Source: Gimesia benthica (lineage in GTDB: Bacteria > Planctomycetota > Planctomycetia > Planctomycetales > Planctomycetaceae). From it: a stretch of 64,000 nucleotides of DNA. The position numbers and the translations under genes are program-made. The stretch spans positions 4,434,501 to 4,498,500 of the forward strand of contig NZ_CP043930.1 in the NCBI RefSeq assembly GCF_009720525.1, in the 5' to 3' direction. This document shows, one piece after another, positions 1,238 to 19,317 of this stretch (the stretch's first letter is position 1; each line of letters starts with the position of its first letter). The notes under the pieces are model-generated. The model worked only from the letters and a program-made list of their open reading frames with translations. It was not told where the DNA came from and made no database searches.

Positions 1238-1619
1238 GTGGCTGTTTCCTGAAGCGAGTTATTCAGAACGCGTTGGTTCAGACGTTTCGATGAAAGCAGC
1301 TATTGAACTTATACAGTACTCTCAGTGGAAGCAAGCAGGTGGGGAAGCTGGTTGGGACTCCCGAATCTATACGTCCTGATAACAGACAGGAAAAAGTTGA
1401 AAGCAGGCTCTCTTCCCTTAATCGAGCATTTTGTGAAATTTTTTAATTTTTTCGCAATTTCGCATCTCTCACAGACGTCCAATCTTCCAGTGAATGAGCC
1501 AAAAAAACTATACTTAATTCTATAAACTCTGAATTTGACGCTTTTTACGCGATTACCCTGTTTACTGTCCATTCTCTACAGATGCCAGGGTACTGAGTAA
1601 TGTACAAAAGGTGGGTTAC
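1238..1619. other. AT-rich intergenic region between divergent genes
   Basis: This 382-base stretch separates the reverse ceramidase-like gene from the forward envelope gene at 1620, so it should hold two divergent promoters. It is markedly richer in A and T than its surroundings, with T and A tracts around 1436-1520 and a TTGACG hexamer at 1535-1540. I see no convincing matching -10 box at the right spacing, no RNA gene and no credible small ORF. Confidence 0.5.
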
Positions 1620-4600
1620 ATGCGCTGTCTGAGATGCACTCTTCGTTTCGTTCTTCTGATCTGTCTGGCATGCACATTACTGGGAGGAGTGTCCCGCTCG
1701 GCACTCGCTCAAGCCAAAGTCGAAGCAGAAAAACCTGCCGCTGGCGAGGCTGATTCATCAGGGAAAGAACAGGATGACTGGGATCGCCTGATCTATATCC
1801 CTTTTAAGAATATCAAGGACGTATTCCAGAAATCGGATGCGACGGTTTTCATGCCGTATGTCGAGTATCTGAAACTCTGGTCGCAGTCAGCGGGACTGGG
1901 GACGGACGGGAAGATTCAGTTTCCTGTCAAAGCCGTGGTGACGAGTTCGTCTTACACGGCCACGATCGAAGAGAATGTCGCCCGGATCCAATGTAATCTG
2001 ACCGTTCAGGTGATGGTCGATCCCTGGGTCGAGCTGCCCCTGCAGTTTGGTGATGCCGCCATTGGTAAAGTCACTTCGGAAAAATCAAAGGTCTTTCTGC
2101 GCGGCACCGGGCCGGGGCAGTACGCGCTGCTCCTGTCCGAAAAAGGCGAACACCAGGTTCAGATTGAACTCTTAACGCGGGTGAAAAATTCGCCGGAAGG
2201 ACATCAGTTTCAGTTTGCCTGTCCGACAGTAGGCATCACCACCCTGGATCTCACGATTCCCGAACCGGATCAGACCGTCAAAATCAATCCGCAACTGGTC
2301 CGCCTGCCCGCGAAGTCAGCTGAGAAATCGACCGTTGTGAAATCGACTGTCGGAGCCACCAATCAGATCAGTGTGCTCTGGTATCCCCGGGAAAGCAGCA
2401 AGCCGGAAATGGACCTGCTGGCCAGCGTCGAGAACTCTACCCTGGTTTTTATTCGTGATGGACTGGTACATACTCAGGCCACTTTAAAATACGATGTCCT
2501 GCGGGGAGACATGAAATCGGCCCGCATCGCGGTGCCCCTCAACGACCGAATTCTGGATCTGTCATCAGCCAATACAAAAATCAAGAGCTGGAAAGTTGAA
2601 AAGGGCGATGGGCGTCAGGTGATTCAGGTCGAATTTCTGAATCAGTTACAGGACGACGCGCAGATCGAAGTGCATACTGAAAAAGAAATTCCCGAAGAGC
2701 CGTTTGAGATCCTGGGACTTTCCGATTCCGCGACGCACGGAATTCATGCCTTGGACGTCATCCGGGAAAGCGGCCAGATCGCCATCGATGCGGGTGAGAC
2801 CATGACCTTCACCGTCACGAAGTTTGAGGGAGTGACCCGCAGCGAAGCCAACGGTATCCCAGAAAACATCCGCCGGCCCGGAGCTGTCTACTATCGCTTT
2901 TTCAATCCCTCGGCAACGTTGCAGATCCGTGTGCAGCCCCTGGAACCTCGAATCTTCGTTGCGCAACAGACGGACTGCTATTTCGGTGAAGACGAAATCA
3001 AAGTCACAGCGCAGCTCAATTACGATATCCAGCGGGCTGGAATCTTTTCCTTCCAGTTGAAAGTGCCCGAAGATCTGGAGATCGATTCCGTGAATGTTTC
3101 CGGGCTCAAAGAATATATCTTCGACAAAGAGTCCCGTCTGCTGACGGTGTCCCTGCAACAGAAATTTCAGGGAAAACTGAAACTGCAGGTTCGTGCTCAT
3201 CGGGATCTGGCTCAGGACGACCTCTCCGAAACGGTCAATATTCCGATTCTGGAAGCGACTGAAGTTGAACGTGAGACAGGCCAGATTGCCCTGTACGCAC
3301 CGGAATCGATGGAGCTGATTATCAGTAATCCGGATGTGGTTGGTGCCCAGCCGGCCAATAGTCCCCAGCAGCGACAGTCAGCCCGGCTGGCACTGGCGTC
3401 GGTATGGGAATACAACCGGCGTCCTGTGGTGATTCCGGTTGAGATTCAGATCAAACCGACGCGACTGGTCGCTGATGTCGCCACCTCCATCAGTGTCAAA
3501 GAACAGATTGCAGAGGTAACCAGCCGCATCAATTACCAGGTGCAGTTTGCTGGCGTCGATACGTTTCGGTTCGCAGTTCCGGAGGCGATCGCGGACCTGG
3601 TTCAAATCAGATCGCTTTCGCCCGCACCAGCCCCTTCTATCAAACAGAAAAGTCGGGCCGAGCAAGCCGTTGATGGCTGGGTGACCTGGACGATTATCAC
3701 ACAGCGGAATGTGCAGGGCCCCTACACTCTGGAAGTCCGTTATGATATCACACCTGGCCTGCAGGCAGTCGCAAAAGCTCCTGAAGTAAAGAAACCGGCG
3801 GCTGCAGGGGAAAAAGAAGCGAAAGAAAACGAAGACGCTGAGCAGGAGAAAACTAAAGAATCAGAGAAAGCGGCCGAGGATCCCTCTGGCGATATCGCCC
3901 TGAAGCAGATTGCCTTACAGCCGTTAAAAGTGTTGGGGCTGGAGAAAACTGATGACCAGCCACGCTCGCGAAACGTGCCACTCGCACGCGTGTATGGTGA
4001 AATCGCTGTCAGCAAGTCCAAGACCCTTTCGGTAACTACCGCTGAGTTGTCAGATCAACTGGAGCCGATCGACCTGAGAGAGCTGACTTTACTGCCGCGG
4101 GATGGTTTTCTCGCTTATCGTTATTTCAGCCAGCCAGTCATGCTCGACCTCGCTTCCACGCGTCATAAGATCCAGGAAGTCGTAGAGACAATCGTACTGA
4201 AGTCGCTGGTGGAAATTGTGGTCAGTAAAGAGGGACGTTCTACGTATCGTTGTCGCTATCTGATGAAGTCCAGCGAACGACAACAGTTGAAAGTTGCCTT
4301 GCCTGAGGGCATTGAGCCTTTAAGTATCACCGTTGCCGGTCAGCCGGTTCCGCTGGAGAAAGCAGATGACAGCGAGAGCGAAGAAGGCTGGACCAGCTAC
4401 TTCGTAAATGTCTCTCGCGATCAGGCATCGGACGAGTCGTTCCTCGTCAGCCTGATGTTTACCAAGTCTGTGCCACGTATTACTGATTCGCCCGGCGGTA
4501 AGCTGGGATTGCCGTTACCTCGACTGGGAGGTGTGCAGGCTGCGAATGTAGTAGTACAACAGTTGAAAACTGTGATCTGGGTGCCGGATGATTACGCTTT

Positions 4601-5165
4601 GGTTCGTTCCTCTGATGATTTTAAATCGGAGTTCGAACCTCATCTGTCCGGCGTGATTCCTAAACGGGGTGGGATTGATGCAGACGCATCCTTTTTCGAT
4701 TCCTGGATCGGCGTTTCAGCCGGATCACTGATCGATTTTCCGACAGAGGGCCGTGCTTACAGCTTCACCCGCCTGGGGGGCAGTCCTGAGATTGAAGTCT
4801 CCTGGTGGAAACTTTCCCTCTATAGCTGGGTTCTGGGAATCGCTCTGGTAGTGATTGCTGTCGTGATGCGCAAGACCCCCTGGGAAAACAAAGTGACGGT
4901 GCTGATCGTTCTCGGGTTTCTGTTAGCCATGTTCAGTCTGACCAATGCAGACAAAATTCTGCATGGCCTCTACGCGGCCCGATACGGAATTCTGGCTCTG
5001 TTTACGATCTGGATTCTGTATTCGATCGCAGCACTTCGCTCCGTGGGTATCGTTGATCATAAAGCTGACGATTCACAGCTGGACCTTGCCGGTAAATCAG
5101 CGGCAGTGATTCCGCCTCCCGGTGTATTCGATGATTTCCAGGATGACCAGACTGACGAGAAATAG
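1620..5165 (+). CDS. Large secreted, C-terminally membrane-anchored beta-repeat protein
   Basis: 1181 aa, no named family recognised. I chose ATG 1620 rather than GTG 1611 because the AGGTGG ribosome site overlaps the GTG. Residues 1-30 are a signal peptide ending near ALAQ. Residues about 57-88 carry a paired motif, IYIPFKNIKDVF then FMPYVEYLKLW, that reappears twice in the next gene. The long middle consists of alternating hydrophobic strand-like segments with recurring phrases such as ETGQIALYAPES, suggesting repeated beta-sandwich domains outside the cytoplasm. A Lys/Glu/Ala-rich linker covers about 720-758. Three hydrophobic helices at about 1066-1140 anchor the C-terminus, followed by a short acidic tail. 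It lies 84 bases before its larger relative, probably in one operon. Envelope or surface role is inferred; function is unknown. Confidence 0.8.
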   Translation: MRCLRCTLRFVLLICLACTLLGGVSRSALAQAKVEAEKPAAGEADSSGKEQDDWDRLIYIPFKNIKDVFQKSDATVFMPYVEYLKLWSQSAGLGTDGKIQFPVKAVVTSSSYTATIEENVARIQCNLTVQVMVDPWVELPLQFGDAAIGKVTSEKSKVFLRGTGPGQYALLLSEKGEHQVQIELLTRVKNSPEGHQFQFACPTVGITTLDLTIPEPDQTVKINPQLVRLPAKSAEKSTVVKSTVGATNQISVLWYPRESSKPEMDLLASVENSTLVFIRDGLVHTQATLKYDVLRGDMKSARIAVPLNDRILDLSSANTKIKSWKVEKGDGRQVIQVEFLNQLQDDAQIEVHTEKEIPEEPFEILGLSDSATHGIHALDVIRESGQIAIDAGETMTFTVTKFEGVTRSEANGIPENIRRPGAVYYRFFNPSATLQIRVQPLEPRIFVAQQTDCYFGEDEIKVTAQLNYDIQRAGIFSFQLKVPEDLEIDSVNVSGLKEYIFDKESRLLTVSLQQKFQGKLKLQVRAHRDLAQDDLSETVNIPILEATEVERETGQIALYAPESMELIISNPDVVGAQPANSPQQRQSARLALASVWEYNRRPVVIPVEIQIKPTRLVADVATSISVKEQIAEVTSRINYQVQFAGVDTFRFAVPEAIADLVQIRSLSPAPAPSIKQKSRAEQAVDGWVTWTIITQRNVQGPYTLEVRYDITPGLQAVAKAPEVKKPAAAGEKEAKENEDAEQEKTKESEKAAEDPSGDIALKQIALQPLKVLGLEKTDDQPRSRNVPLARVYGEIAVSKSKTLSVTTAELSDQLEPIDLRELTLLPRDGFLAYRYFSQPVMLDLASTRHKIQEVVETIVLKSLVEIVVSKEGRSTYRCRYLMKSSERQQLKVALPEGIEPLSITVAGQPVPLEKADDSESEEGWTSYFVNVSRDQASDESFLVSLMFTKSVPRITDSPGGKLGLPLPRLGGVQAANVVVQQLKTVIWVPDDYALVRSSDDFKSEFEPHLSGVIPKRGGIDADASFFDSWIGVSAGSLIDFPTEGRAYSFTRLGGSPEIEVSWWKLSLYSWVLGIALVVIAVVMRKTPWENKVTVLIVLGFLLAMFSLTNADKILHGLYAARYGILALFTIWILYSIAALRSVGIVDHKADDSQLDLAGKSAAVIPPPGVFDDFQDDQTDEK

Positions 5166-5249
5166 CAGATAAGTCTGAAACTACCAAAACGGATTCACCG
5201 AGAGTTGAATCAAATCCGACTGTGAGCGACTAACTGCATGAGGTTCGCC

Positions 5250-8200
5250 ATGAATATAAAATCAAAAACGATATCCGCATCTGCTGTTACTGGTGTGTCT
5301 GAAATACGCCGACTTGTGAATCTGGCACTGGCGATCACAGTCTGCCTGGGTTGCCTCTCGACGTGGTTTCCTCGGGAACTCCCCGCCCAGAAAAAGAACA
5401 GTAAAAAAGTGGCTGTCAAACAGAAACAGTCGATGCCCGCACCAAAGCCTCCTCACTGGCCAGAGACTGCCGTCTATCTGCCCCTGGATCAACTGGACGC
5501 ATTAATGTCACGCGACCGCAGCGGTGTGCTGTTGCCCCGTGCGCAGTATGAGTCGCTCAAAAAACAGGCGGAAGCCAATAACGGGGGGACCGGACTGCCT
5601 GATGCACGATCTGTTATTTATGGTGCTGCCTACGAGGCGACTCTCTCAGATCGGCAACTAGTCATTAAGGCCCGCATTTCGATTCGCCAGTTTCCTCAAC
5701 AACTGACGGCTGTCGAATTGCCTCTGCAGGGGCTGGCAGTGGAATCGGCCGAACTGGACGGGAAGCCTGCCATGCTCGCCCGACAGTCCGGAAAGAATTC
5801 GCAACTGCAGTTGTTCAGCAAGGGGGCAGGAGAGCATCAACTGGAACTACAGCTTTCAGCTCCTCTAAATACGGTTGGCAGTGATCAGGTCTCCCAGTTT
5901 CAGTTACTACCCGGTGTGCCCAGTCAGTTCAAAATGAAAGTTCCCACTGATCGGCACCTGGTGGTTAATGAATTGAAGGTGAAATCCGCTTCCCAGGAGG
6001 GAGAACAGGCTGCTTATGAGTTCCCGGTGGGGGGAGATGGTAAGGTCAGCATTAAAATCACCGAGCAGTCACAGCAGCAGGCCAACGATTCTCTGATCTT
6101 CGCACAGAGTGGGATTGGTGTTTCTGTCAGTCCCGGTAAAGTCGCCTGGCAGGCGCAGACCACGCTCAATATCTACGGCCAGTCACTGGATCGGGTGATT
6201 CTGAGTGTGCCCCAGTCTCTGGAAATTGTCAGTGTGGAATCAACGGGGCTGGAATCCTGGACGTTGAATGACAGCATGCGGGATCGTAACCGGACAGAAA
6301 TCACATTGAATTATCGGCAGCCAATCGAGGGCGAACGACAGATTATCTGCCGGGGTGTCATGACCACGGAAACGGATGAAGACTGGAATGTTCCTGATTT
6401 GTTCATTGAGAAGGTCAATTCTCATGTCGGTTCAATTCTGATCCGCTACCCGCCAGGAGTTCGACTCCAGGTCGAAAGAACGCGAAACGTCAGACGGAAA
6501 GCCCAGACTGCACCGGCGACTCGTCAAAGAACTCCCGTGCGACAGACTACGGGGCCGGGACTGGATTTCGATTTCTGGCAGGAAGATTTTCGTATCTCAC
6601 TAATCACGCAGGAAAAACGTTCCGAGGTGCAGATGGCAGCATCTACCGTGATTGACATCAATGAACAGGGAATGGATCTCCGCCTGGTGACCACGGTGGA
6701 AAGTCTGTTTGCTCCCATGTTTGAGTTTGAAGCAAACCTGCCTGCCGAGTGGACCATTCTGGGAGCGACTTTTAAAGATCAGCCGATCGACTGGAAAGAA
6801 TCATCTCGTGAAGCGGGTTCCAAACAGATACGCCTTCCTTTCCCGGATGCACTGCCGGCGAACCAGGAAGCACGTGTGATTATCACCGCACATCGCGATC
6901 TGGAGAACTGGCCCCCTGAAACAGAAGGCCAGCTACTCAACTTGCCTCAAATTGAATTACCCCAGGCCAAAATCCTGGAGGGAACTCTGGTCATCAATGC
7001 GGAGAATGACTGGGATCTGATTCCCAGCGAACTGACCGGCCTGGAGCCGATGCAGGAAAGTATTCCCAACATGCGGTTCGGGTATCAATATCAGGACAAC
7101 AGCTATTCAGGCAGCCTGACTGTTTCCCGAAAACCATTGCAGATGGCCGCACATCATCTGCAGTATGTCCGGCTCGACCAGACCACGCTCTTCTCACACT
7201 ATGAGGCAACTCTCAATGTTGAACGCGGGAGCTTCCGGTCTCTGATGGTTGCCCTGCCGGAAAGTGTGGGTACCGATCTGCAGTTTCAATTAATCAATTC
7301 CGCTGGACGCATCATTGAACAGGCAACCGAAGAACCTCAGAACGGAGTGCGCGTCTGGAAATTGAAGATGGATCGCCGCTTGAGTGGTAAGCAGACCCTG
7401 ACAGTAACCGTCGAACAACCTCGACCTGAAGGTGAGGTTGTGCAGATTCCGCAACTGCAGATCATGTCTGCAGATCGTCAGTATGGAGAAGTTGCATTCG
7501 AAGCGGAAGGTGATCAGCGTCTACAGATTAAAGCAACCGGCGTTCGAGGTCAGGCTCTGAATTCGATCGATGCCGCCGAGTTACCTGCCCCAATCACTTA
7601 CATGCCACAGGAACGCATTGTCGCTGCATTCCGGTTTGTGGGCGCCGGTCATCAGATACAGGTTCAGGAAACCCGTTTCGATCAGACGGCTGTACCCACC
7701 GCGATTGCGCATCAGCTTCAGATTCAAAGCGTACTGGGCTCTGCAGGAGAAGTTCAAAACGAAGCTGCACTCGACTTTTCTGCTGTCGGGATTCAGGCTC
7801 TGCAGGTCATACTCCCGGAGGGGGCAGAACTGTTGTCGGCCCAGATTGGTGGAACCCCGGTTGAGGTACGTCAGACAGGCGCTGCTTTCATGATCCCCGT
7901 GACTGCGGATAGCCAGACCGATGGCACGCATACCTTGAAACTCCTCTACGATGCGAATCGTGGAAACGTGGCCTGGAAAGATCGACTCTCCGCTGTGCCT
8001 CCACAGGTCGCCGTTGTTGACGGAGCTGGACAGATCCAGCCGCTACAGATTTTGAACCAGGCCTGGACGATTCTGTATCCCCAGGACACTTTCATTACCG
8101 ACAGCACCGGGGATTTTGTACCCGACCAACCCCTGGGACGACCGGGGATGATCGAACGGGTTCGTCAGCACCTCTCAATTGTGCCAATCCGCGAGATGGG

Positions 8201-11200
8201 CGGGCGCGTTCTGGCTGCCTGTGGTGCGCTGCTGATTGCTGTGGTAAGCGTCTACTCTTATCGCAGGGGTGGGGTCAACGTCGTAATTTCGCTGTTCGGC
8301 GGGTTTATCCTGCTTTGTATCGTCATCGCACTCATGCTGCCTGCTGTGCAGCAGTCACGAGAAGCAGCACGCCGTTCCATGTCTAAAAATGAAATGCGAC
8401 AGATTGAGTCATCAGTGCAGAGTGATCAGACAGGTGGGACTCAACTGGGATTCGAACCGAACTCCGGTGAAACACCAGCACCATCGACGGCTCCTACCCA
8501 AAGTTTTCAAAGAGGGCAACAGGTTGATGGGCTGACGAGAAAACTCAAGGAACCGACTTCGCAAACGGAGGAAATGAATCGGTCTGGTGAATCGAAATCT
8601 CGAGATGGCAAAGCCAAATTCGACAGGCTGGCTGGAGGTATGCAGGGCAAGCCGGCCTCTATGGCTGCGGGGGAAGGTTTAATCAAAGAGGCAGAGTATC
8701 CTCCTGCTCCGGCGAAAGCGCTGGGAGGTCGACTTTCGGTTGTCGCACCACTGCCTGCTCCAGAAGGTTATCGCTCACTGGAATTTCAATATTACGGCGA
8801 GCCACATAAATCCGGGCTGTCGCTGGATGTGACGTTGCAGGCCCTGAAAATTAATCGTCGACTGTTTCTGATTGTGATGGTCGGAGTGCTCTGGCTGGGC
8901 TGGTTAATGCGGAGCCGGACTTGCCTGCAGCGTTGCCTGGTGCTGTTATTGGGTGTTTTTCTCCCGATCACCTGCAGTGCGTTTCTCCCTGCAGGATTAC
9001 AACCGATTCTGGATGGCCTTTTCGTCGGTTCGCTGCTGGTCGGTTTATGCTGGAGTGTGGAATGGATGATCGGCAAACTGGGACGGGAATGCTGTCGCTG
9101 GAATGCTTCTGCAGACAAGAAGCAGGCGACGGTCAGCACTTTGCTCCTGCTCGGTTTCTGTCTGGGAGCTCCGGTAAGTGGAATTGCTCAGACGGACGTC
9201 AAACCACCTGTTCCCAGCCTGCCTCAAAACCTGGTGATCCCTTACGAAGCAGGCACTGATCCGCTCGACTCACAACGCATCTTTCTGCCGCAGAATGAAT
9301 TCAGAAAACTCTGGAATGCAGCGCATCCGGATGAACCCGTCGATCAGCAGGCAGCTTCAAAGGGGACTGTCAGCCAGGCACTCTATGCAGCAGAAATAAA
9401 ACCGGGAGCGGAAACCGGACAGGCGGTCGTGCATGTCAAAGGACGTCTGGTCATCCACACGGTTGGTTCCCAGCCGGTGACAGTCGCCTTGCCTTTAGGA
9501 AAAGCGGCCATCAGCAGTGCTCAGCTTGATGGAAAGTCGGCTACCTTGTTGACTCAGCCGGAACACAAATTCACCATTGATAAAATTGTTTCACAAACGA
9601 TGTATTCAATCGTGATTTCACAGGCCGGACTGCATATCCTCGATCTGGAACTGGATCTGCCCGCGCAACAGAGCGGGACGGCGGGGAGTTTCAAATTTGA
9701 TCTCCTGCCTGTGGCCAGTGGGCGATTGACACTCGATCTTCCCGATGTGACTTCGGAGGTCAGCATCACGGGAACCCGGTCCACTTATCGGAAACAGACA
9801 GCCGCAGGTAAATCGAAACTGGAGCTGCCTGTAGACCAGGGGGGCCAACTGCAGATTTCCTGGCGTCAGGCAGAAGAGCGGGGTGCGATTCAAGGCATTG
9901 TGCATTGTGATACCAGTCTGTCAGCGGTCGTCCAAGACGCGGGACTGCGGTTACACAGTCTGCATCAATATCAGGTGCGACAGGGGACGATTAACCAGGC
10001 ATTATTGAAAGTTCCCGGGGACATTCGCATTCAGTCCGTTACCGGTCCCGATGTGGGTGGCTGGGAAATGGTGGGGACCGGAGATGATCGACGTATCAAA
10101 GTATTTTTAAGACGCGATATCAAAGATGGGACACGCGTCAAAGTGGAAGCGTTTCAGTCGCTGTCTGTTGGAAAGCAGAATCGTTCGCTCAACCTGCCCC
10201 AGTTTGTTCCTGAAACTATCACAAATGAAACCGGGACCATCGGCGTCTACGCAGAGCCTCAGTTTCAGATTCGTCCGGAGAAAATATCCGGAGCGATACA
10301 AATCGATACACAGAAGTATGTGAATCCGGAAACCGCATCGCCGGTCTGGAAAATAGCAGGCCACACTCTGCAGCCCCAATGGGCTTACCGGTTTTCGCGT
10401 CGACCCGTGGAGACTCAGTTCTTCCTTTCCCGAAAACAAGCTGAAAAACAGGCCATCGCTGAGCATGGAGTTCTTGTTTCACCTCGCAAGCTGAGCGTTT
10501 CCAGCCGCATCCGCTATCAGCTTAAAGGGATTCCCGAATCGACGTTCGTGCTGGAACTGCCTGAAGCCTACCTGGTCTTGAGTGTCCAGGCACAGGGGCT
10601 GGATGACTGGTATGTGATCGAGCAGAACGCCGATGACATGCGGGTTCTGGTTCTCGAATTTGCCGAGCTCAAAACCAGTCTGGCAGAGATCGTGGTCGAT
10701 GGTGTGGTGCCCCGGGAGGGAAATCAGCAACAGGCTGAAGTGATGATCCCTACACCACTGGCGGTCGCCGCGGTACGCAGTGATCTGGCTATCTGGATCG
10801 ACGAATCTTTGGTAGCACGTGCCCCCGAACTGGAAGACTGGCGGGCGATTTCCTCTGCCGATTTGTCACCTGAATTGAAAGCACAGCGTCCGAGCCTGCC
10901 TCAATTCGCTTATCGATCCTCGGCAGAGTTACCGGAGTGGATCAAACTGGAACTCACTCCGGCTCAGCCAAATGTGACGGCTAACTCACTGGTGATGACG
11001 ACGGTGGGTAATGTGTCGGTCAGCCATACGGTGGGGATTCGCTGGTCGATTCAGGGAGCAGCAACCGATGTGTTGTCGTTTACTACCCCTGCCTGGCTCG
11101 GAGAACATCTGGACTTCCGTGGGGATTCGATTCGACAGATCAACAAACGCGTAATCGGCAATGAAATCATCCAATGGACAATTCACCTGCAGAACTCGGT

Positions 11201-13313
11201 CGAAGGAACGTATTTCATCACCGCAGAAACCACGCAGGCACCTCCGGTGACCGGGAAGATTGAGATTCCCCAGGTACGTGTCATGGACACCAGCATTCAG
11301 GTTGATTCACAAACGACCGAACTGGAAATTCAGCAGCATTATCTGATGCTGGTGAATCACAGCTGGGCACGGTTGAACCTGCTGAACCCGGAATCGATCA
11401 CAACGGTCGATCGTGAGGAAATGCCGCTGACACTCGATGATGCCCTGGCTAATCAGGCAATGACTCTGGCTCGGCTGCAGGGGAATGGTAAACCTCCCGA
11501 GTATCAGATTCAGCAGTTCCAGTCAGATCAGGGAGCCGCCGCTGCGGTGAATCTTTCGCAGTTGACGACCGTGCTGGCCCACGATGGTAGCTGGAAAACG
11601 CATGCAGAATACCGCTTGCGCAACCGGTCACGACAGTTTCTGGCAGTCATGCTTCCGGAACGGTCGCAGGTGTTGAGTGCGTTCGTCAAAGGCGTACCAA
11701 CCGCCCCGGTATTACTGAAACAGGTAGCGGAAGCAACAGAGAAGGGTGAAGAAAAAACAACACAAAATCAGGCGATCTATCTGCTGGCACTCCCCAAAAC
11801 GAGTGCGGCTGATCTTTCTTTTTCTGTCAATCTGATTCTCGTCGGTCGGCTGGAGTCCAGTTTGCCCCAGGGGAGATTTAACTGGCAGGGAAAGGCACTC
11901 GATCTGGAACCGCCGCGGATAGTCACACCTGCAGAGAATGCCGAGTATGGAATTCCCGTCGCCCAGACCAAGTGGACTGTCTATGTTCCCGACGATTATT
12001 CGGCAACTCCCTTACTGGATAACTCGCGAACGAATATGTCACCGGTTCTGTCGGAATCAGAGTACACCCAATATCAACTTTCGCTGACGAGTGTTCAGAA
12101 AGATGTGGAGAACCTTTACTCCGTATACAGCGGCAGTAAGAGTGACCGTGTGCGAAAACGGGTGATCTCCAACCTGAAAGAACTGGGGAAACAGTTAGAT
12201 ACGGATGACGATGCCCAGACCAGACAGCAGGGGCAGCGAATCAAACAGCAGATCAGCGAACTGCAGCGGAAGGAACAACAGCGTCAGGCACAGCAGGATA
12301 AAATGTTGAACGACGCGGTGAATACAAATGGAGTCTCCGATTTTGATTCCGAAGACGCTTTCAACAGCCTCGTAATCGGAAATAATGCCTCATTATACAA
12401 GTTGAATCGCGCTCCGGCTGAATCCTCGAACGGTGATGGAGCGGCTTCATCAAATACGGCCAGCGACCTGCCCAAACTGAAAAGTTTTACGATTCGCAAT
12501 GCAGCACCCAAGCAGGCGCCTGGAAAGAAAGGTATTCAGACAACACCTGCCGACAGCCGTGCCTTACGTCGTCAGCAGAGCCTGCAGAATGCGAATGATT
12601 ATGCGATGCCTCAGCAGGAGTTGCAGCAACAACAGGCGATGCCAAATCAGCCCCCGTTCAATCAGAGACAACACTTTGAAAACGGATCGCCATTTGGTCT
12701 CTCTCCCAGTGATCGAACACAGAATATGAGAGAATCACTGGAATATGATGCCTTCCAGAGAAGGGGGAGAGATAACAGCCTGGCTGAGGGACGCGGGCAG
12801 GCAGGCGGATTTGGAGGAGCAATGCTACCCAATCAGGGGGCCATCCAGGGGCAACCGATGGGGGATGTTTACGACCCAGGTTCCAGGCCTGCTTTCGGAG
12901 AAGCTCCCGCAGAATCTGAGATGCTGGGTGCTGAAGTACAACAGGCTGGCTGGACGCAAGCAGGTGGGATTTCACTGAAGTTTGATATTCCCCTGAAGGG
13001 ACACAAGCTGGAATTCACCAAGGTCAATGGACATCCCAAACTGGCACTCAAGGTCCGCCCTGAAAATACGTTTGCCTTCGGTTCTGCCCTGGTCTGGACG
13101 ATCTTCTGGGCAGGGATGCTGATCTTTCTGATTCTGATTGTCACCCGCTACGGAGATTCGATTGTGCTCCGAAAATGGGGCGGTATCATCCTGTCTCTGG
13201 TGGGGCTGATCGGCTGGTTGTTCCTCTCCGACTGGTTGGGGAACTTTGCACTGGTCTGCTTTCTACTGGGAGCGATCTGGCTCAGTGCACAGCGAATGAA
13301 ACCGACTGCTTGA
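5250..13313 (+). CDS. Giant envelope protein, apparent fusion of two beta-repeat modules
   Basis: 2687 aa, no named family. ATG 5250 has GAGG six bases upstream; ATG 5238 is an alternative start with a weaker site. A signal peptide covers about the first 47 residues. Module one starts with VYLPLDQLDALM and VLLPRAQYESL (about 74-105), matching the preceding gene, followed by beta-rich repeats. A hydrophobic block at 8200-8345 ends in LMLPAVQQSREAARRS (from residue 1028), resembling planctomycete DUF1559 pilin-like N-termini. More membrane segments lie at 8855-9075. A second signal-like stretch at 9127-9195 ends near SGIAQ, and then module two restarts with IFLPQNEFRKLW (about 1344-1356). Towards the end come a coiled coil (about 2287-2354), a Gln/Asn-rich region and several membrane helices (about 2611-2684). 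Function is unknown. Confidence 0.8.
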   Translation: MNIKSKTISASAVTGVSEIRRLVNLALAITVCLGCLSTWFPRELPAQKKNSKKVAVKQKQSMPAPKPPHWPETAVYLPLDQLDALMSRDRSGVLLPRAQYESLKKQAEANNGGTGLPDARSVIYGAAYEATLSDRQLVIKARISIRQFPQQLTAVELPLQGLAVESAELDGKPAMLARQSGKNSQLQLFSKGAGEHQLELQLSAPLNTVGSDQVSQFQLLPGVPSQFKMKVPTDRHLVVNELKVKSASQEGEQAAYEFPVGGDGKVSIKITEQSQQQANDSLIFAQSGIGVSVSPGKVAWQAQTTLNIYGQSLDRVILSVPQSLEIVSVESTGLESWTLNDSMRDRNRTEITLNYRQPIEGERQIICRGVMTTETDEDWNVPDLFIEKVNSHVGSILIRYPPGVRLQVERTRNVRRKAQTAPATRQRTPVRQTTGPGLDFDFWQEDFRISLITQEKRSEVQMAASTVIDINEQGMDLRLVTTVESLFAPMFEFEANLPAEWTILGATFKDQPIDWKESSREAGSKQIRLPFPDALPANQEARVIITAHRDLENWPPETEGQLLNLPQIELPQAKILEGTLVINAENDWDLIPSELTGLEPMQESIPNMRFGYQYQDNSYSGSLTVSRKPLQMAAHHLQYVRLDQTTLFSHYEATLNVERGSFRSLMVALPESVGTDLQFQLINSAGRIIEQATEEPQNGVRVWKLKMDRRLSGKQTLTVTVEQPRPEGEVVQIPQLQIMSADRQYGEVAFEAEGDQRLQIKATGVRGQALNSIDAAELPAPITYMPQERIVAAFRFVGAGHQIQVQETRFDQTAVPTAIAHQLQIQSVLGSAGEVQNEAALDFSAVGIQALQVILPEGAELLSAQIGGTPVEVRQTGAAFMIPVTADSQTDGTHTLKLLYDANRGNVAWKDRLSAVPPQVAVVDGAGQIQPLQILNQAWTILYPQDTFITDSTGDFVPDQPLGRPGMIERVRQHLSIVPIREMGGRVLAACGALLIAVVSVYSYRRGGVNVVISLFGGFILLCIVIALMLPAVQQSREAARRSMSKNEMRQIESSVQSDQTGGTQLGFEPNSGETPAPSTAPTQSFQRGQQVDGLTRKLKEPTSQTEEMNRSGESKSRDGKAKFDRLAGGMQGKPASMAAGEGLIKEAEYPPAPAKALGGRLSVVAPLPAPEGYRSLEFQYYGEPHKSGLSLDVTLQALKINRRLFLIVMVGVLWLGWLMRSRTCLQRCLVLLLGVFLPITCSAFLPAGLQPILDGLFVGSLLVGLCWSVEWMIGKLGRECCRWNASADKKQATVSTLLLLGFCLGAPVSGIAQTDVKPPVPSLPQNLVIPYEAGTDPLDSQRIFLPQNEFRKLWNAAHPDEPVDQQAASKGTVSQALYAAEIKPGAETGQAVVHVKGRLVIHTVGSQPVTVALPLGKAAISSAQLDGKSATLLTQPEHKFTIDKIVSQTMYSIVISQAGLHILDLELDLPAQQSGTAGSFKFDLLPVASGRLTLDLPDVTSEVSITGTRSTYRKQTAAGKSKLELPVDQGGQLQISWRQAEERGAIQGIVHCDTSLSAVVQDAGLRLHSLHQYQVRQGTINQALLKVPGDIRIQSVTGPDVGGWEMVGTGDDRRIKVFLRRDIKDGTRVKVEAFQSLSVGKQNRSLNLPQFVPETITNETGTIGVYAEPQFQIRPEKISGAIQIDTQKYVNPETASPVWKIAGHTLQPQWAYRFSRRPVETQFFLSRKQAEKQAIAEHGVLVSPRKLSVSSRIRYQLKGIPESTFVLELPEAYLVLSVQAQGLDDWYVIEQNADDMRVLVLEFAELKTSLAEIVVDGVVPREGNQQQAEVMIPTPLAVAAVRSDLAIWIDESLVARAPELEDWRAISSADLSPELKAQRPSLPQFAYRSSAELPEWIKLELTPAQPNVTANSLVMTTVGNVSVSHTVGIRWSIQGAATDVLSFTTPAWLGEHLDFRGDSIRQINKRVIGNEIIQWTIHLQNSVEGTYFITAETTQAPPVTGKIEIPQVRVMDTSIQVDSQTTELEIQQHYLMLVNHSWARLNLLNPESITTVDREEMPLTLDDALANQAMTLARLQGNGKPPEYQIQQFQSDQGAAAAVNLSQLTTVLAHDGSWKTHAEYRLRNRSRQFLAVMLPERSQVLSAFVKGVPTAPVLLKQVAEATEKGEEKTTQNQAIYLLALPKTSAADLSFSVNLILVGRLESSLPQGRFNWQGKALDLEPPRIVTPAENAEYGIPVAQTKWTVYVPDDYSATPLLDNSRTNMSPVLSESEYTQYQLSLTSVQKDVENLYSVYSGSKSDRVRKRVISNLKELGKQLDTDDDAQTRQQGQRIKQQISELQRKEQQRQAQQDKMLNDAVNTNGVSDFDSEDAFNSLVIGNNASLYKLNRAPAESSNGDGAASSNTASDLPKLKSFTIRNAAPKQAPGKKGIQTTPADSRALRRQQSLQNANDYAMPQQELQQQQAMPNQPPFNQRQHFENGSPFGLSPSDRTQNMRESLEYDAFQRRGRDNSLAEGRGQAGGFGGAMLPNQGAIQGQPMGDVYDPGSRPAFGEAPAESEMLGAEVQQAGWTQAGGISLKFDIPLKGHKLEFTKVNGHPKLALKVRPENTFAFGSALVWTIFWAGMLIFLILIVTRYGDSIVLRKWGGIILSLVGLIGWLFLSDWLGNFALVCFLLGAIWLSAQRMKPTA

Positions 13314-13389: not shown

Positions 13390-14073
13390 ATGGCAACAAA
13401 GATTACCTGGCTGGGACATTCCTCCTTTCAGATTGAAACCAATGGTAAAACCATCCTCCTGGATCCCTTTCTGACAGGGAATCCCAGCGCGAGCGTCTCC
13501 GCCGATGCCGTCGAGGCTGATGCAATCATTGTCAGTCACGGGCACGGAGATCATGTCGGGGACACCGTTGAGATCGCGAAACGCACCAAAGCGCTGGTGG
13601 TTGCCAATTTCGAAATCATCGACTGGATGGGGAAACAGGGGATTGAAAATGTGCACCCTCAGCACATCGGTGGTTCCTATCAACATGAGTTTGGGACCGT
13701 CAAGCTGACAATCGCCCACCATGGGTCGATGCTGCCGGACGGAAGCAACGGCGGCAGCCCCTGTGGGATTCTCTTAAAACTGGAGGATGGGACGATTTAC
13801 TTTGCCGCTGATACCGGTCTGTTTTACGACATGAAGCTGATTGGTGAAGAAGGCGTTGACCTGGCGATCCTGCCGATCGGCGATAACTTCACTATGGGAC
13901 CGGAAGATGCAGTACGGGCGACGAAACTGATCGGACCCAAAAAGGTTATCCCCATGCACTACAATACCTGGCCTCTGATTGAACAGGACGCCGCTGCATG
14001 GGCTCATCAGGTACGAAGTCAGACCACGGCCGAACCGGTGGTATTGGAACCGGGTGGCTCCTGCGAGCTTTAG
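13390..14073 (+). CDS. UPF0173-type metallo-beta-lactamase-fold hydrolase
   Basis: 227 aa, the usual length for this small MBL subgroup. The N-terminal phrase ITWLGHSSFQIE is characteristic of UPF0173. Metal ligands are visible: HGHGDH at H50, H52, D54 and H55, then AHHGS (H110/H111), AADTG (D141) and PMHYNTW (H190). There is no signal peptide, so it should be cytoplasmic. The physiological substrate of the family is not established. GAGG precedes the ATG by six bases. Its stop codon overlaps the stop of the convergent Rieske gene by three bases, so transcription from the two sides must collide or terminate here. Confidence 0.92.
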   Translation: MATKITWLGHSSFQIETNGKTILLDPFLTGNPSASVSADAVEADAIIVSHGHGDHVGDTVEIAKRTKALVVANFEIIDWMGKQGIENVHPQHIGGSYQHEFGTVKLTIAHHGSMLPDGSNGGSPCGILLKLEDGTIYFAADTGLFYDMKLIGEEGVDLAILPIGDNFTMGPEDAVRATKLIGPKKVIPMHYNTWPLIEQDAAAWAHQVRSQTTAEPVVLEPGGSCEL

Positions 14074-14436: not shown

Positions 14437-15687
14437 TTATTTCTTCTGATATTTCCCAGGCGAAGCAGCCTGTCTGATTTTAGACAGTTTTCGAATCAGC
14501 TCACCCATCTGATGGCGATTCACTTTTTTACTCTTCGCGATTTGAGCAGCCTGTTTCAGGAATTTTTTGATCTGCTTTGGATCTTCATTCAAACGTCTCG
14601 CGATGGGATCGAGTACACGATGTTCCTCACCACGGAAATGCCTGAGGTTCAGTTCCGAAAACAGCTGCTTGATATACGCGAATAGTAAAGCACGCCCGTT
14701 GGCTTTTTTATAGTGTAAATTGCCGACGTTATCGGTATGCGAAACAATATTATGCCGGGGCAGAATGTGGGAAGAGAGGATCGGCCCGAAGCGATTGCTT
14801 CTCCACCAGCCGAAAATAAGCAGTGTGATCAGCAGCTGGATTGTCAGGGGGCGGAAGGTCGGGTCGATCAGCAGAGCGACGACTTTCGATGTTCCCGAAG
14901 CATTCAGTGATTCATCAACAACAAAATACTCGGGAGGTCCGGCAGCCTCAATGAGCCGAAATGCCGCAACGCTGCCGCCATCTACCATGGACTGATTTGA
15001 AAAGATTTCCGAGGAAGCGGAGACAACCACTGTTCCCAAGCCATGATGCAGCCGGACGGCCTGCTGGGTCTCTCCTGCAGTGACCAGAGCCTGACCCGTT
15101 GCGGAGGTAACCCGTGCATTGGTATCCCAGACGAGTGAAGGGACATCAGGAAACACGGTCGAGGCCTGGGTTTCGATCAGGTCATGTTCACCTTTTATCA
15201 GCAGGCTGAGATCGGATTCCTCTTTGTCTTCGTCATCCTCTTTTTTCTCAACACGCGGCATGTTTTCCCGTTCGACTTCATCGAGATATTCCACGCTGAG
15301 ATTCAGCGGTTCCACCTGGAACTGCGGATGTTTTGGATTAGCTGAAATGACCAGTCGCCCGCCCTCTTCGACCCAGGCCAGCAGAGACGACCATTCCAGT
15401 GGACTGGGATAGCGGGCCGGGCCGAGGATGCAGACGGTTTCGTCATAATCAAGTGATTGCAGCAGGACGCTCAGAGGAGTCCGGTTGCGTTCTGTTTGAA
15501 ACGATTCATGATCGAGCAGGAGATAAAATGCTTTTTTCCCACTGGCGGAGGAACTATAGGAATCGTCCAGCGCACCGGTACCGAACTCCGGAAACCAGAG
15601 GTGTAAAGGAAGTAGCAGACAGAGTGCGGCCAGCCAGAACCAGCCCGCATTTCTGCGTTCACGTTTCTTTCTGGAAGGCTGCTGCAT
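14437..15687 (-). CDS. DUF4350-domain membrane protein
   Basis: 416 aa from ATG 15687; an upstream ATG at 15753 would overlap the preceding gene by 95 bases and is less likely. A basic N-terminus (QQPSRKKRERR) is followed by one membrane helix at about residues 14-33. Next comes the DUF4350 region, with KKAFYLLLDHE and WVEEGGRLVISANP; in this family it resembles a GATase/ThuA-like fold without proven catalysis. A second hydrophobic helix lies at about 280-300, with a basic cytoplasmic tail rich in Lys/Arg. DUF4350 proteins commonly sit with RDD, DUF4129, SpoIIM, MoxR and DUF58 genes; the first three are here. Function is unknown, and an envelope-associated role is inferred. Confidence 0.8.
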   Translation of the reverse strand: MQQPSRKKRERRNAGWFWLAALCLLLPLHLWFPEFGTGALDDSYSSSASGKKAFYLLLDHESFQTERNRTPLSVLLQSLDYDETVCILGPARYPSPLEWSSLLAWVEEGGRLVISANPKHPQFQVEPLNLSVEYLDEVERENMPRVEKKEDDEDKEESDLSLLIKGEHDLIETQASTVFPDVPSLVWDTNARVTSATGQALVTAGETQQAVRLHHGLGTVVVSASSEIFSNQSMVDGGSVAAFRLIEAAGPPEYFVVDESLNASGTSKVVALLIDPTFRPLTIQLLITLLIFGWWRSNRFGPILSSHILPRHNIVSHTDNVGNLHYKKANGRALLFAYIKQLFSELNLRHFRGEEHRVLDPIARRLNEDPKQIKKFLKQAAQIAKSKKVNRHQMGELIRKLSKIRQAASPGKYQKK

Positions 15688-16441
15688 AATGCTGGAGTGT
15701 ACTTTCAAAGTGTTCTCGGGTTGCGACCCGACGGCCGAATCCCAGGGGTTCATAAGTGCGAATCATCTGACGCAGTGATTCGCCGGCCAGGCCATGAGGG
15801 CGTGCCGCACGCATATAATCGCGATAGGTTAATCCTTTACGGAACCGGATCCATCCCGAGCGTTCAATGAAGCTCATGGATCCATACAGTAGCTGGATGA
15901 TAGCTTGATGGTAGTTACCTGATCTGGCGAGTTCCTGTGCCCGTTCGAGGTAAGTGGCTGCCGCTAATTCCGCGGGCGAGACATGCTCCTCCAGCACCAT
16001 CTCCCCTTGCAACTGGGTTTTGTCGGATTTCATGTTGTGCTCTCTGGAAAGCTTAAAGCCAGTCACTGCTTTTACGAGCAGGAACAGAACCAGTAGACAG
16101 GCACAAATCACAGCAGCATACGACAGGTAGAGGAAAATCAATCCGGCAACACCGGAGATGGCAGAGGTATCATAGCTGCTCTGTGGGGGAGGATCTTTGA
16201 TCCAGTCATCCAGATCTACGTCGGCTTCCTGAGCGAGTTCGCGTTCGCGGGTCAGATGTCGAAATTCAGGCCGTTTCAGAATCTCCTGCATGTCCTGCTT
16301 CAGCATCACCTGGTCAGGAGATGACAGATCGGTGTAATCATTTTCCTGCTGTGCAGCGAGAAACACCGGGGTCAGCAGGATGATTCCCAAACTGAGAATC
16401 AGGGAGACTTTGCACTGGAAGCGAACTCGAGAGGCTGTCAT
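15659..16441 (-). CDS. DUF4129-domain membrane protein
   Basis: 260 aa. A signal or anchor helix spans about residues 10-29 (ILSLGIILLTPVFLAA), a short acidic extracytoplasmic part follows, and a second membrane helix lies at about 100-127. The C-terminal cytoplasmic domain contains AELARSGNY-like helices and ends with LRQMIRTYEPLGFG, typical of DUF4129, a domain found at the C-terminus of some transglutaminase-like proteins. Start and stop overlap its neighbours (ATGA at 16438-16441, 29 bases with DUF4350), which implies translational coupling. The MoxR/DUF58/DUF4129/DUF4350 gene set is widespread but its role is undefined. Confidence 0.82.
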   Translation of the reverse strand: MTASRVRFQCKVSLILSLGIILLTPVFLAAQQENDYTDLSSPDQVMLKQDMQEILKRPEFRHLTRERELAQEADVDLDDWIKDPPPQSSYDTSAISGVAGLIFLYLSYAAVICACLLVLFLLVKAVTGFKLSREHNMKSDKTQLQGEMVLEEHVSPAELAAATYLERAQELARSGNYHQAIIQLLYGSMSFIERSGWIRFRKGLTYRDYMRAARPHGLAGESLRQMIRTYEPLGFGRRVATREHFESTLQHYAAAFQKET

Positions 16442-17358
16442 AACGAAACCTCCTTGAATGTCAGATTCTCAGAGACTTCGGTCATTCGGAGTTCCATATC
16501 CCAGCAGTCCAGTCGCACCCGCAGGTCGATATAAGTAAAGAACCAGGCCAGGCGGCCAATGGGATAGACCAGCAGGATGAATGCCGTCAGCATGGCCAGC
16601 ACGCGGGGGTCTGTCGTCATCAGCAGCATGATATTGATCAGTGTATCATCGGCGGTTTTCGGGTCCAGCAGATATGGGATCTGTCCAATCAGGATCGGGA
16701 ACTCCAGCAGGGTGTAGCAGAGGTAGTCGAAGGTGATAAACAGGATCAGCGTCAGGATGTAGCAGAAGAGAAAGATGGCCAGTCCCCGGCCAAAGAGTGA
16801 GCCGAAGTTGGTCTTGATCAGGTCTTTTGTGCGATGATCGTGCGAGGCATCTTCCTGCGAGGCCACACCTGCAAAATCCAGAACGGCCTGTTCGACCCGG
16901 AATCCGCTGCGTACCAGAATCCAGATACCGGGAAAGAAACAGTAGATGAATCCCAGCAGGCCGAGCATATTGCCGGAAAAAAAGAGCAGGGCAGGTCCGA
17001 TAAAGAACAGAGCTCTCTCTGCCAGGCAGAGCAGCATCAAAGGAATCATCCGGAACTGGAACTGGCGTCTCAGGCTTCCCATGCCTGGAGTGTTTCCGAA
17101 CGCAAACAGGGCTGAATTCCAGGTGAGCAAGACCCCCAGCGGTGATGAAGCAAAGAAGGCCACGGTCAGTGCCATCCGCAGGTCCAGCAGAAAATAATAG
17201 CTGAGACAATACACGAGGGTGCAGGCCGGGATTGCGATGATCGCCCAGAGTTTGAGGATCGGGATCAGGAACCGTCCGTAGAAACGGATCGCGAGGTCCA
17301 GACAACTGCTGGCCTTCCGGGGAACCAGGGCGATATTGATCTTCTCGAAACGCATCAT
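16438..17358 (-). CDS. Polytopic membrane protein of the SpoIIM/RDD operon
   Basis: 306 aa, no named family recognised. After a basic start it has about six hydrophobic helices: two between residues 30 and 80, two around 100-150, then about 195-225 and 265-290. It ends with a Trp/Tyr- and Arg-rich stretch (YIDLRVRLDCWDMELR) typical of a cytoplasmic boundary. The ATGATG start overlaps the stop of the SpoIIM gene, and its own stop overlaps the DUF4129 start, so the three genes are translationally coupled. No catalytic motif is visible, so a transport or scaffold role is only a guess from its neighbours. Confidence 0.78.
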   Translation of the reverse strand: MMRFEKINIALVPRKASSCLDLAIRFYGRFLIPILKLWAIIAIPACTLVYCLSYYFLLDLRMALTVAFFASSPLGVLLTWNSALFAFGNTPGMGSLRRQFQFRMIPLMLLCLAERALFFIGPALLFFSGNMLGLLGFIYCFFPGIWILVRSGFRVEQAVLDFAGVASQEDASHDHRTKDLIKTNFGSLFGRGLAIFLFCYILTLILFITFDYLCYTLLEFPILIGQIPYLLDPKTADDTLINIMLLMTTDPRVLAMLTAFILLVYPIGRLAWFFTYIDLRVRLDCWDMELRMTEVSENLTFKEVSL

Positions 17359-18434
17359 GCCGATGGAAGCTCCCCTGGTTTCTCAGAAGGACCTGGTTGA
17401 GCCGCGGTCTCTCCCGTTTCATCAGACTGAAGTCCGGCAAAGGCGAGGTACAGAAAAACAATCAACCAGAGCACACTGCCGACACTGTACTTCAACATGG
17501 GGGATACATCAGAGGGAGACCAGAAGGCTTCGATCAATGCCGCTACCACCAGCATGACAGCTGCGCCGCCTGCGATTTGCACTGCTTCCAGTCCGCGAAC
17601 CTGCAACGACTGAAATCGCGTTCTCTGACCCGGATGAATCAGGGCATTTCCCAGCATCAGTCCGGCGCCTCCCGCAACGGCAATGGCCGTCAGTTCAAAA
17701 GAACCGTGCGAGATAACGAAGCTTAAAAAACGCTCACCGTGTCCCTGGCTGATGACGTAACCGGAGACGGCTCCCAGAAAAATTCCGTTAAACAGGAGGG
17801 TATAAACGGTGCCAATCCCGAGCAGAATTCCCAGTGCAAAACATTTCAGTGCAATGCCCACATTATTGTTGATATAGAAACCGGCCATCGTTGCCCGTTC
17901 ATCTCCAAAGCTGGATCGCCCTTCTGGTTCCGACTCTGACCCTTCCTCGCTCGCATTGTCCGGATCAGACTCGCCATGGTCTGAATACATCGTGTCAAAG
18001 CGGGACATGATTTCTTCGGGGATGACCCGCGAGGCGAGACTGGGATTGTTCTGCACCACATACCAGCTGATCCCCAGCGGCAGAAAGAACAACAGGCAGG
18101 CTGTCAGGAAGTAGCCAATATTGGCACGAAACAGACGGGGAAATTCGAGGGACACATATCTATAAAAAACGGAGAGATTGCTGGGCGGGGCGCCATAAAA
18201 CAGGTTATGTCCTCGCGCGACCAGATCGTTCAGGTAAGAGATCAGGTCGTGTCCCCAACCGCGAGACCGAATGGTGGCCAGATCGTGAGAAACTTCTCGG
18301 AGCAGCCGGGAAAATTCCGTGATCTGTTCCGCCTCCAGTTTGGACAGGGATTTGCGGGAGGTGCCGTACAGAAACTCTTCGAATCGTTTCCACTGGGGTC
18401 TGCGTTGCTGAATGAACTTATGCTTATTCATCAT
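17355..18434 (-). CDS. SpoIIM (stage II sporulation protein M) family membrane protein
   Basis: 359 aa. A soluble N-terminal helical part holds TIRSRGWGHDLISYLNDLV. It is followed by a membrane helix at about 100-120, an acidic Ser/Glu-rich extracytoplasmic loop at about 150-180, and four more helices carrying the family phrases NNVGIALKCFALGI, GTVYTLLFNG and ISHGSFELTAIAVAGGAGL. In Bacillus, SpoIIM belongs to the engulfment machinery. Planctomycetes do not form endospores, so this is the widespread SpoIIM/DUF95 version of unknown role. GGAG precedes the ATG. It overlaps the RDD gene by 11 bases upstream and the next membrane gene by four bases. Confidence 0.88.
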   Translation of the reverse strand: MMNKHKFIQQRRPQWKRFEEFLYGTSRKSLSKLEAEQITEFSRLLREVSHDLATIRSRGWGHDLISYLNDLVARGHNLFYGAPPSNLSVFYRYVSLEFPRLFRANIGYFLTACLLFFLPLGISWYVVQNNPSLASRVIPEEIMSRFDTMYSDHGESDPDNASEEGSESEPEGRSSFGDERATMAGFYINNNVGIALKCFALGILLGIGTVYTLLFNGIFLGAVSGYVISQGHGERFLSFVISHGSFELTAIAVAGGAGLMLGNALIHPGQRTRFQSLQVRGLEAVQIAGGAAVMLVVAALIEAFWSPSDVSPMLKYSVGSVLWLIVFLYLAFAGLQSDETGETAAQPGPSEKPGELPSA

Positions 18435-19317
18435 GGAACTCCCCGAAGCCAGACTGTTTCAGGTATTCGGAGACCACATCCTGTTCTTCTTCGGCCTGAC
18501 TGAAGCTGAATGTTTTATAGACGGCTGCCAGAAATGCCATGGGGTAGTGAGTCACTTTTTTCGGGTCCCCGGAATAGTGCAGTCGATCGGCCAGGTTTTG
18601 TGCCAGAATTCCGGCCAGGGCATGCCCCCGTTCATAGGTCAAAACATGACGGCGACCGATGAATTCGTCAATCAGCGACAGGACTTCGTCTCGCGGAAGG
18701 AAGCTGCCGATTTCATTTTTGTCGAGGGGTTTGATTTTATCCAGAATCACGGGTTTCCGGGGGAGTTTCAGCGAACGCTCCTGGATCACAACCGTGCCGG
18801 CAGCCAGATCCCCAAGTCTCTGGAAGCGACGTGTCAGCAGCATGGAGGTGATGCCGATTCCATAGAACATGATCGCATCGGCACTTCGCACGAGGTTTCT
18901 CAGTACGGCGGGCCAGAAGGTAATCGGGTAGCCCCCTTCACGGATCACGCGGATGCCGCAAAAGTGTTTCCCGATGGATTGTCCTTTGAAGAATCCTTCT
19001 GAGATCGTGTAGTAACCCCAGGTATTGAGGAACATCAGAACCAGGAACAGGCCGAGGGCGGTTCCGGGCAAGACCAGACTCATCATCGGCATGACGAACA
19101 TCAGTAATCCAATCATGACAACCATGCGGATGATAAGATCAATCAGATAGGCCAGATAACGTTGTGCTGGCCCTGCCAGCTGGTAGGTCAGAATGACATT
19201 CTCTGGGGTCTCAATCTGCATGTCCAGGCTCAGTTTTCGAGGCTGATTAGAATAGACCTCTTCCTGATAGACGGCTGAGGTCTGCGCCAGGTCCAGTTCT
19301 GAAGTTGCGGTCGCCAT
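18424..19317 (-). CDS. RDD-family membrane protein, first gene of the operon
   Basis: 297 aa. The RDD domain begins after about 35 residues: YQLAGPAQRYLAYLIDLIIRM holds the Arg and Asp that name the family, inside the first of about three membrane helices. The partner segment GKHFCGIRVIREGG follows, and PAVLRNLVRSADAI comes next. A roughly 100-residue soluble C-terminal tail (from about 190) is predicted to be helical and contains LPRDEVLSLIDEFIGRR. RDD proteins are often transport-related or found with MoxR-type operons; the substrate is unknown. It leads the six-gene reverse operon, so the promoter should lie in 19318-19659. Confidence 0.88.
   Translation of the reverse strand: MATATSELDLAQTSAVYQEEVYSNQPRKLSLDMQIETPENVILTYQLAGPAQRYLAYLIDLIIRMVVMIGLLMFVMPMMSLVLPGTALGLFLVLMFLNTWGYYTISEGFFKGQSIGKHFCGIRVIREGGYPITFWPAVLRNLVRSADAIMFYGIGITSMLLTRRFQRLGDLAAGTVVIQERSLKLPRKPVILDKIKPLDKNEIGSFLPRDEVLSLIDEFIGRRHVLTYERGHALAGILAQNLADRLHYSGDPKKVTHYPMAFLAAVYKTFSFSQAEEEQDVVSEYLKQSGFGEFHDE

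Follow-up and report, generated by a model that had tools for sequence, protein, structure and literature searches.

Ribophorin I (Ost1, PF04597), a subunit of the oligosaccharyltransferase (OST), has lumenal domains that resemble the N-terminal domain of M1 aminopeptidases (PF17900). These are the closest described systems to a pair of adjacent genes, here called S and A-B, found in a 64,000-nucleotide stretch of the planctomycete Gimesia benthica (NZ_CP043930.1, positions 4,434,501 to 4,498,500; hereafter the window). S encodes one copy and A-B two copies of the same large module, and each module is predicted to be a chain of repeated beta domains of the M1 N-terminal/ribophorin I type. According to one account, Ost1 carries a pair of similar lumenal domains, largely of beta structure, and may stop the glycosylated peptide from sliding back (PMC7226087); in another, BLASTp found no relatives of non-catalytic OST subunits in bacteria or archaea (PMC4973528).

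Like ribophorin I, S and A-B are predicted to hold tandem beta domains of this fold on the non-cytoplasmic side, with a C-terminal membrane anchor and no catalytic site. They differ in that each module is read as five domains, against the two of ribophorin I, and in how the domains are arranged; moreover, ribophorin I, which assembles with STT3, has a single membrane helix and a cytosolic four-helix bundle, whereas S ends in three predicted helices and a tail of ~35 residues. With M1 aminopeptidases they share the predicted fold of single repeats, one of which shows profile-level similarity, but the domain is repeated and no catalytic domain is present. Integrin alpha chains, in which an N-terminal beta-propeller is followed by thigh and calf domains, are also long beta-domain chains ending in a membrane helix, but rank high in Foldseek E-value order only. 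S-layer proteins lie at the surface and lack inner-membrane helices; the predicted membrane helices of S and A-B speak against such a location.

Three homologous modules in two adjacent genes

An earlier note, made from the DNA sequence without database searches, described two adjoining giant genes built from three copies of one module. Both open reading frames (ORFs) are present, separated by 72 bp, and A-B is the longest ORF in the window. The start at 1620 is an in-frame ATG of the longer S ORF and gives 1181 aa; a later ATG in A-B gives 2687 aa. Similarity among the three modules is far greater than chance would give in phmmer (S-A, E 1e-18; S-B, E 2.6e-19; A-B, E 1.6e-22), and every pair aligns end to end in hhalign at probability 100 (E 1.5e-56, 5.3e-57 and 4.7e-55 over 932, 897 and 903 columns). 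The double hydrophobic-P phrase that had drawn attention to the modules is a genuine N-terminal feature. A regular expression for it, crude and derived from these very sequences, matched near the module start in 36/60 single-ORF modules, 21/44 A modules and 31/44 B modules, compared with 23/720 later segments of the same set.

Each module, judged by its sequence, is itself an internal repeat, which the earlier note had not noticed: S aligns with itself at an offset of ~177 residues. It is read as five domains (D1 to D5), at about residues 105-265, 265-442, 443-617, 617-800 and 800-1068. When S and module A were compared domain by domain, the D2, D3 and D4 pairs scored 72-98 with two exceptions (S D4 against A D2, 3-5; S D4 against A D3, 20). 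With such high cross-scores the middle domains are plainly copies of one another. The end domains matched their own counterparts (D1-D1, 99; D5-D5, 96-97). Against A D3, A D1 scored 65-76, S D5 19-74, A D5 6-31 and S D1 0-1, and D1 and D5 are otherwise poorly tied to the other domains by sequence, so their placement in the repeat rests mainly on predicted fold.

In line with the earlier note, which knew no named family, Pfam and NCBIfam do not name these proteins: neither library gave a match over cut-off for S or A-B. Matches to 7TMR-DISM, PLA2G12, Tetraspanin, MTBP_mid and SstD were all below cut-off and scattered. Pfam scans of the members of two alignments (14 and 16 sequences) gave similarly weak, scattered matches, the best being K-box in alignment A1 (E 0.00062, 3/16 members) and one of E 0.015 in A2. 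No paper on the family was among the matches listed by the literature searches.

Distribution and conservation of the gene pair

S was matched in all 17 genomes of the genus, its own included, and in 7 of the 8 other genomes of the taxonomic family. The family profile matched 109/119 genomes of the class (62/70 genera; up to six candidates scored per genome) and 85/294 in a sample of the phylum. Because no more than two candidates were scored for each genome of the phylum sample, a miss there does not mean that the family is absent; both counts record profile matches, which need not be intact pairs.

The synteny is conserved. At 43 of 56 loci (some genomes counting twice, as two fetches or two paralogous pairs), a same-strand family ORF of 1812 aa or more comes after S. 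These 43 include four loci where a contig end truncates the second ORF (L038, L041, L120, L122), one whose second module was not recognised (L130) and one whose S is split (L064). The pair overlaps by 4 bp in L062, L065, L116 and L121, which suggests translational coupling. The other 13 loci comprise a shorter second gene (L068, L131), two long genes (L125, L126, L128), three genes (L113), the double alone (L124, L127), S without an adjacent double (L057), contig ends or fragments (L040, L073, L074) and an S followed by a 1958-aa ORF unmatched by the profiles (L075).

The long genes of L125, L126 and L128 measure 1266-1635 aa; overlapping profile matches hint at extra repeats in the first two loci, and the longer gene of L128 has weak TPR matches. 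L064 is a second, diverged S and A-B pair in the window's own genome (C1:2430000-2449900), whose S lies in two overlapping frames of 842 and 317 aa; a relative, L065, has a single 1158-aa ORF.

Duplication and fusion

The earlier note had proposed that a secreted beta-repeat protein with a membrane anchor was duplicated and fused. This reading is supported by the end-to-end homology of the modules, a hydrophobic segment before module B (signal-like in the window) and a locus with three separate genes. The two tests that the note had named, a shared fold and conserved synteny, also come out in its favour, the fold as predicted for S and A. A hydrophobic segment ends at most 75 residues ahead of the B start in 40/42 doubles; the test is lenient, and an ordinary membrane helix can pass it too. 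At L113 (2334-12887), three adjacent genes replace S and A-B, so that every module is a protein of its own; all three have a signal-like N-terminus, a double-P phrase and one or more C-terminal hydrophobic helices.

A FastTree phylogeny was built from 79 modules of 27 loci, with the genus represented by L044, L052 and L055 (the S of L044 is 98% identical to that of the window). The S modules formed a clade of 21 tips (support 0.992) and the B modules one of 19 (0.983), whereas the A clade of 23 tips had weak support (0.497). Exceptions are the S modules of L065, L066, L069 and L070, which cluster with their own B modules (0.980), and the pairs L118/L123 and L124/L127, in which A clusters with B. 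Taken in order along the locus, the three L113 genes group with S, A and B respectively (A-like gene, support 0.300). Since L113 is nested, with weak support, among fused lineages, gene fission there is no less possible than descent from an unfused ancestor.

Predicted fold and topology

Structural models were made for S and module A, and their predicted folds agree. Fold matches were obtained over S residues 105-260, 268-700, 445-615 and 858-1066, and for the first domain and the third plus fourth domains of module A. In both models the top-ranked match of domain pairs was ribophorin I/Ost1, and second structural alignments of 50 rows include M1 N-terminal domains and Ost1, a result consistent with the likeness between the two. 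The repeat is thus predicted to carry the saddle-like N-terminal beta domain of M1 aminopeptidases, and domain pairs the fold of the two tandem lumenal domains of ribophorin I. Neither S nor A-B contains an HExxH motif, and the M1 catalytic profile reached a probability of at most 0.3. PF17900 had no match in the window's genome or in the Pfam scans of window proteins and alignment members.

Signal peptides, C-terminal helices and the internal signal-like segment (Table 1) were assigned by hydropathy and direct reading, with no dedicated predictor. An N-terminal signal combined with several C-terminal helices points to the inner membrane rather than a surface layer. The surface-layer or cell-shape role that the earlier note had raised as speculation thus finds no support.

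Table 1. Features of the S and A-B locus in window coordinates.
Feature	Position	Strand	Details	Basis
Gene S, single-module protein	1611-5165	+	1184 aa, GTG start	ORF call, homology
Signal peptide of S	1611-1712	+	residues 1-34, ...SALA/QA	hydropathy, direct reading
Double hydrophobic-P phrase of S	1791-1886	+	residues 61-92	alignment, regular expression
Beta domains of S	1923-4814	+	read as five	structure model, fold matches, repeat comparison
Three membrane helices of S	4803-5057	+	residues 1065-1149, then ~35-residue tail	hydropathy, model
Gene A-B, double-module protein	5238-13313	+	2691 aa	ORF call
Double hydrophobic-P phrase of module A	5472-5567	+		hydropathy, alignment, regular expression
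Beta-domain region of module A	5589-8192	+	residues 118-985, read as five domains	model, fold match, hhalign
Hydrophobic pair of module A	8196-8363	+	residues 987-1042, between last strands and closing hairpin	hydropathy, model
Closing beta hairpin of module A	8772-8843	+	about residues 1179-1202, directly before membrane helices	model, alignment
Membrane helices after module A	8844-9071	+	about residues 1203-1278	hydropathy (also near-identical relative L044), model
Signal-like hydrophobic segment inside A-B, ahead of module B	9126-9191	+	residues 1297-1318	hydropathy
Double hydrophobic-P phrase of module B	9225-9317	+		hydropathy, alignment, regular expression
Beta-domain region of module B	9330-12107	+	about residues 1365-2290	hhalign, alignment; B not folded
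Low-complexity linker of module B	12108-12947	+		alignment
Closing hairpin of module B	12954-13061	+		alignment
C-terminal membrane helices of A-B	13068-13244	+	residues 2611-2669	hydropathy

A candidate periplasmic scaffold and its alternatives

We give about an even chance to the reading that S and A-B are two subunits of a binding scaffold anchored in the inner membrane and standing in the periplasm. Each of the three modules would be exported by a signal peptide, of which A-B would retain a signal-like segment mid-protein, and would present a chain of five M1-N/ribophorin I-type beta domains held by C-terminal membrane helices. Because no catalytic site is recognisable, the domains would most likely act by binding. 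We infer that the chains are rod-shaped, with the double-P phrase at the membrane-distal end, and that S and A-B form a single complex holding or recruiting envelope clients. Module homology, triplication, conserved adjacency, the internal repeat and the lack of HExxH are shown by the sequences, while fold and topology are predicted. Such a fold assignment would make a periplasmic complex open to testing out of two proteins so far only hypothetical, and would reveal in tandem arrays a domain that elsewhere occurs in aminopeptidases and the OST complex. Beyond the earlier note, the internal repeat, its predicted fold, its occurrence across the class and the locus with three genes are new. Envelope biology is poorly understood in this phylum; a study of Planctopirus limnophila reports 108 phylum-specific proteins that are essential and have no known function (PMC10632474).

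Several observations weigh against the scaffold. Model confidence is middling: the predicted local distance difference test (pLDDT) gave 69.1 and 67.4, and the predicted template modelling (TM) score 0.35 and 0.33. The models were built on 16- and 13-row alignments with sequences in common, so they are not independent and do not establish the domain arrangement. They cover S and A, module B not being folded, and the separate fold matches leave out S D4, A D2 and A D5, which were not queried alone. A profile match to M1_N was convincing in 1/10 single-domain profiles, the next scoring 25.9; against whole S, M1_N scored 1.4, not beyond the reversed control (1.3), and against whole B 4.9. Foldseek E-value order also puts many integrin alpha chains high. 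L057 carries S without an adjoining double. Beyond the phylum, plasmid records (tblastn) and PDB sequence profiles, the sole sets searched, gave no match.

At 43 loci, nearby ORFs of 150 aa or longer were clustered (the 17 genus loci represented by 2), and no conserved neighbourhood beyond the pair was found. Only small sets recur, namely inositol monophosphatase (IMPase), DUF1501 and extracytoplasmic function (ECF) sigma/vWA genes, so the window's own neighbours indicate no function. The IMPase gene lies beside the pairs of L065, L070 and L075 (Pfam) and of L064 and L132 (BLAST cluster).

The ECF/vWA set bears on an unlikely alternative, in which the periplasmic chains would sense the envelope state and feed a vWA/zinc-finger anti-sigma factor with an ECF sigma output. 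In L118 (G132) and L123 (G122), an ECF sigma gene, a gene with zf-HC2 and vWF_A/VWA/YfbK_C, S and A-B follow one another on one strand, the vWA/zinc-finger gene lying 4 and 27 bp ahead of S. In L127 (G160) a gene of the same sigma BLAST cluster is followed by a vWA/YfbK gene 50 bp ahead of the double, and a vWA/YfbK gene also precedes the double of L124 (G093). However, the arrangement occurs at 4 of the 43 clustered loci, L124 and L127 have no recognised S, and the window's genome has no PF12450 match, so a vWA partner is not general.

By analogy with ribophorin I, S and A-B might be accessory subunits of a bacterial protein- or lipid-glycosylation machine, which we consider improbable. The rank of Ost1 among the fold matches fits this idea, as does a PMT-type glycosyltransferase gene upstream of S in L066, L067 and L069. 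However, these neighbours come from two lineages, the gene lying ~2.3-2.4 kb from S in L067 and L069, which belong to the same genus, and no glycosyltransferase was found among the window neighbours scanned. Matches to Ost1 domain pairs have a root-mean-square deviation of 20-23 A, so the two domains are arranged differently. PF04597 was matched in 0/40 genomes at E up to 10, in a search where none of 14 control genomes passed the cut-off and which thus had no positive control. Equally improbable is a reading in which a planctomycete periplasmic complex of 15 ribophorin/M1-N-type domains would correspond, in bacteria, to what ribophorin I contributes to the eukaryotic/archaeal translocon-glycosylation machinery: a membrane scaffold handling substrates, beyond the lineages with OST1 reported in the cited papers.

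A surface-layer, adhesin or cell-shape protein with an integrin-like beta chain is likewise improbable: giant size and frequent integrin alpha chains among the Foldseek matches would fit, but these have query TM-scores of 0.07-0.14 and are absent from the 50 rows of the second alignments of S and A, which do include M1 N-terminal domains and Ost1, and the signal peptide with several C-terminal hydrophobic helices suggests inner-membrane anchorage.

Other features of the locus

The hydrophobic pair of module A includes a DUF1559-like stretch. In the A-B linker, the second of the hydrophobic segments (window 8318-8377) reads IALMLPAVQQSREAARRS and resembles the starts of DUF1559 pilin-like proteins; at the DNA level it shares 82% identity over 60 bp with a DUF1559 gene (L111) in its own genome, and ten other places in all match at E below 0.01. 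By regular expression, the stretch is present in part of the genus, with a similar one in L062, and was not found in the other family doubles examined. Either gene conversion or mimicry could account for it. P. limnophila has 68 DUF1559 paralogues (PMC10632474).

A metallo-beta-lactamase-fold hydrolase gene (window 13390-14073) begins 76 bp beyond A-B. A homologue occupies the same place in 14 of the fetched genus loci, and L044 has an unmatched ORF there. On the opposite strand, window 14437-19317 holds a cluster of DUF4350, DUF4129, unmatched, SpoIIM and RDD genes, the first of which also adjoin the pair in the other genus loci reaching that far.
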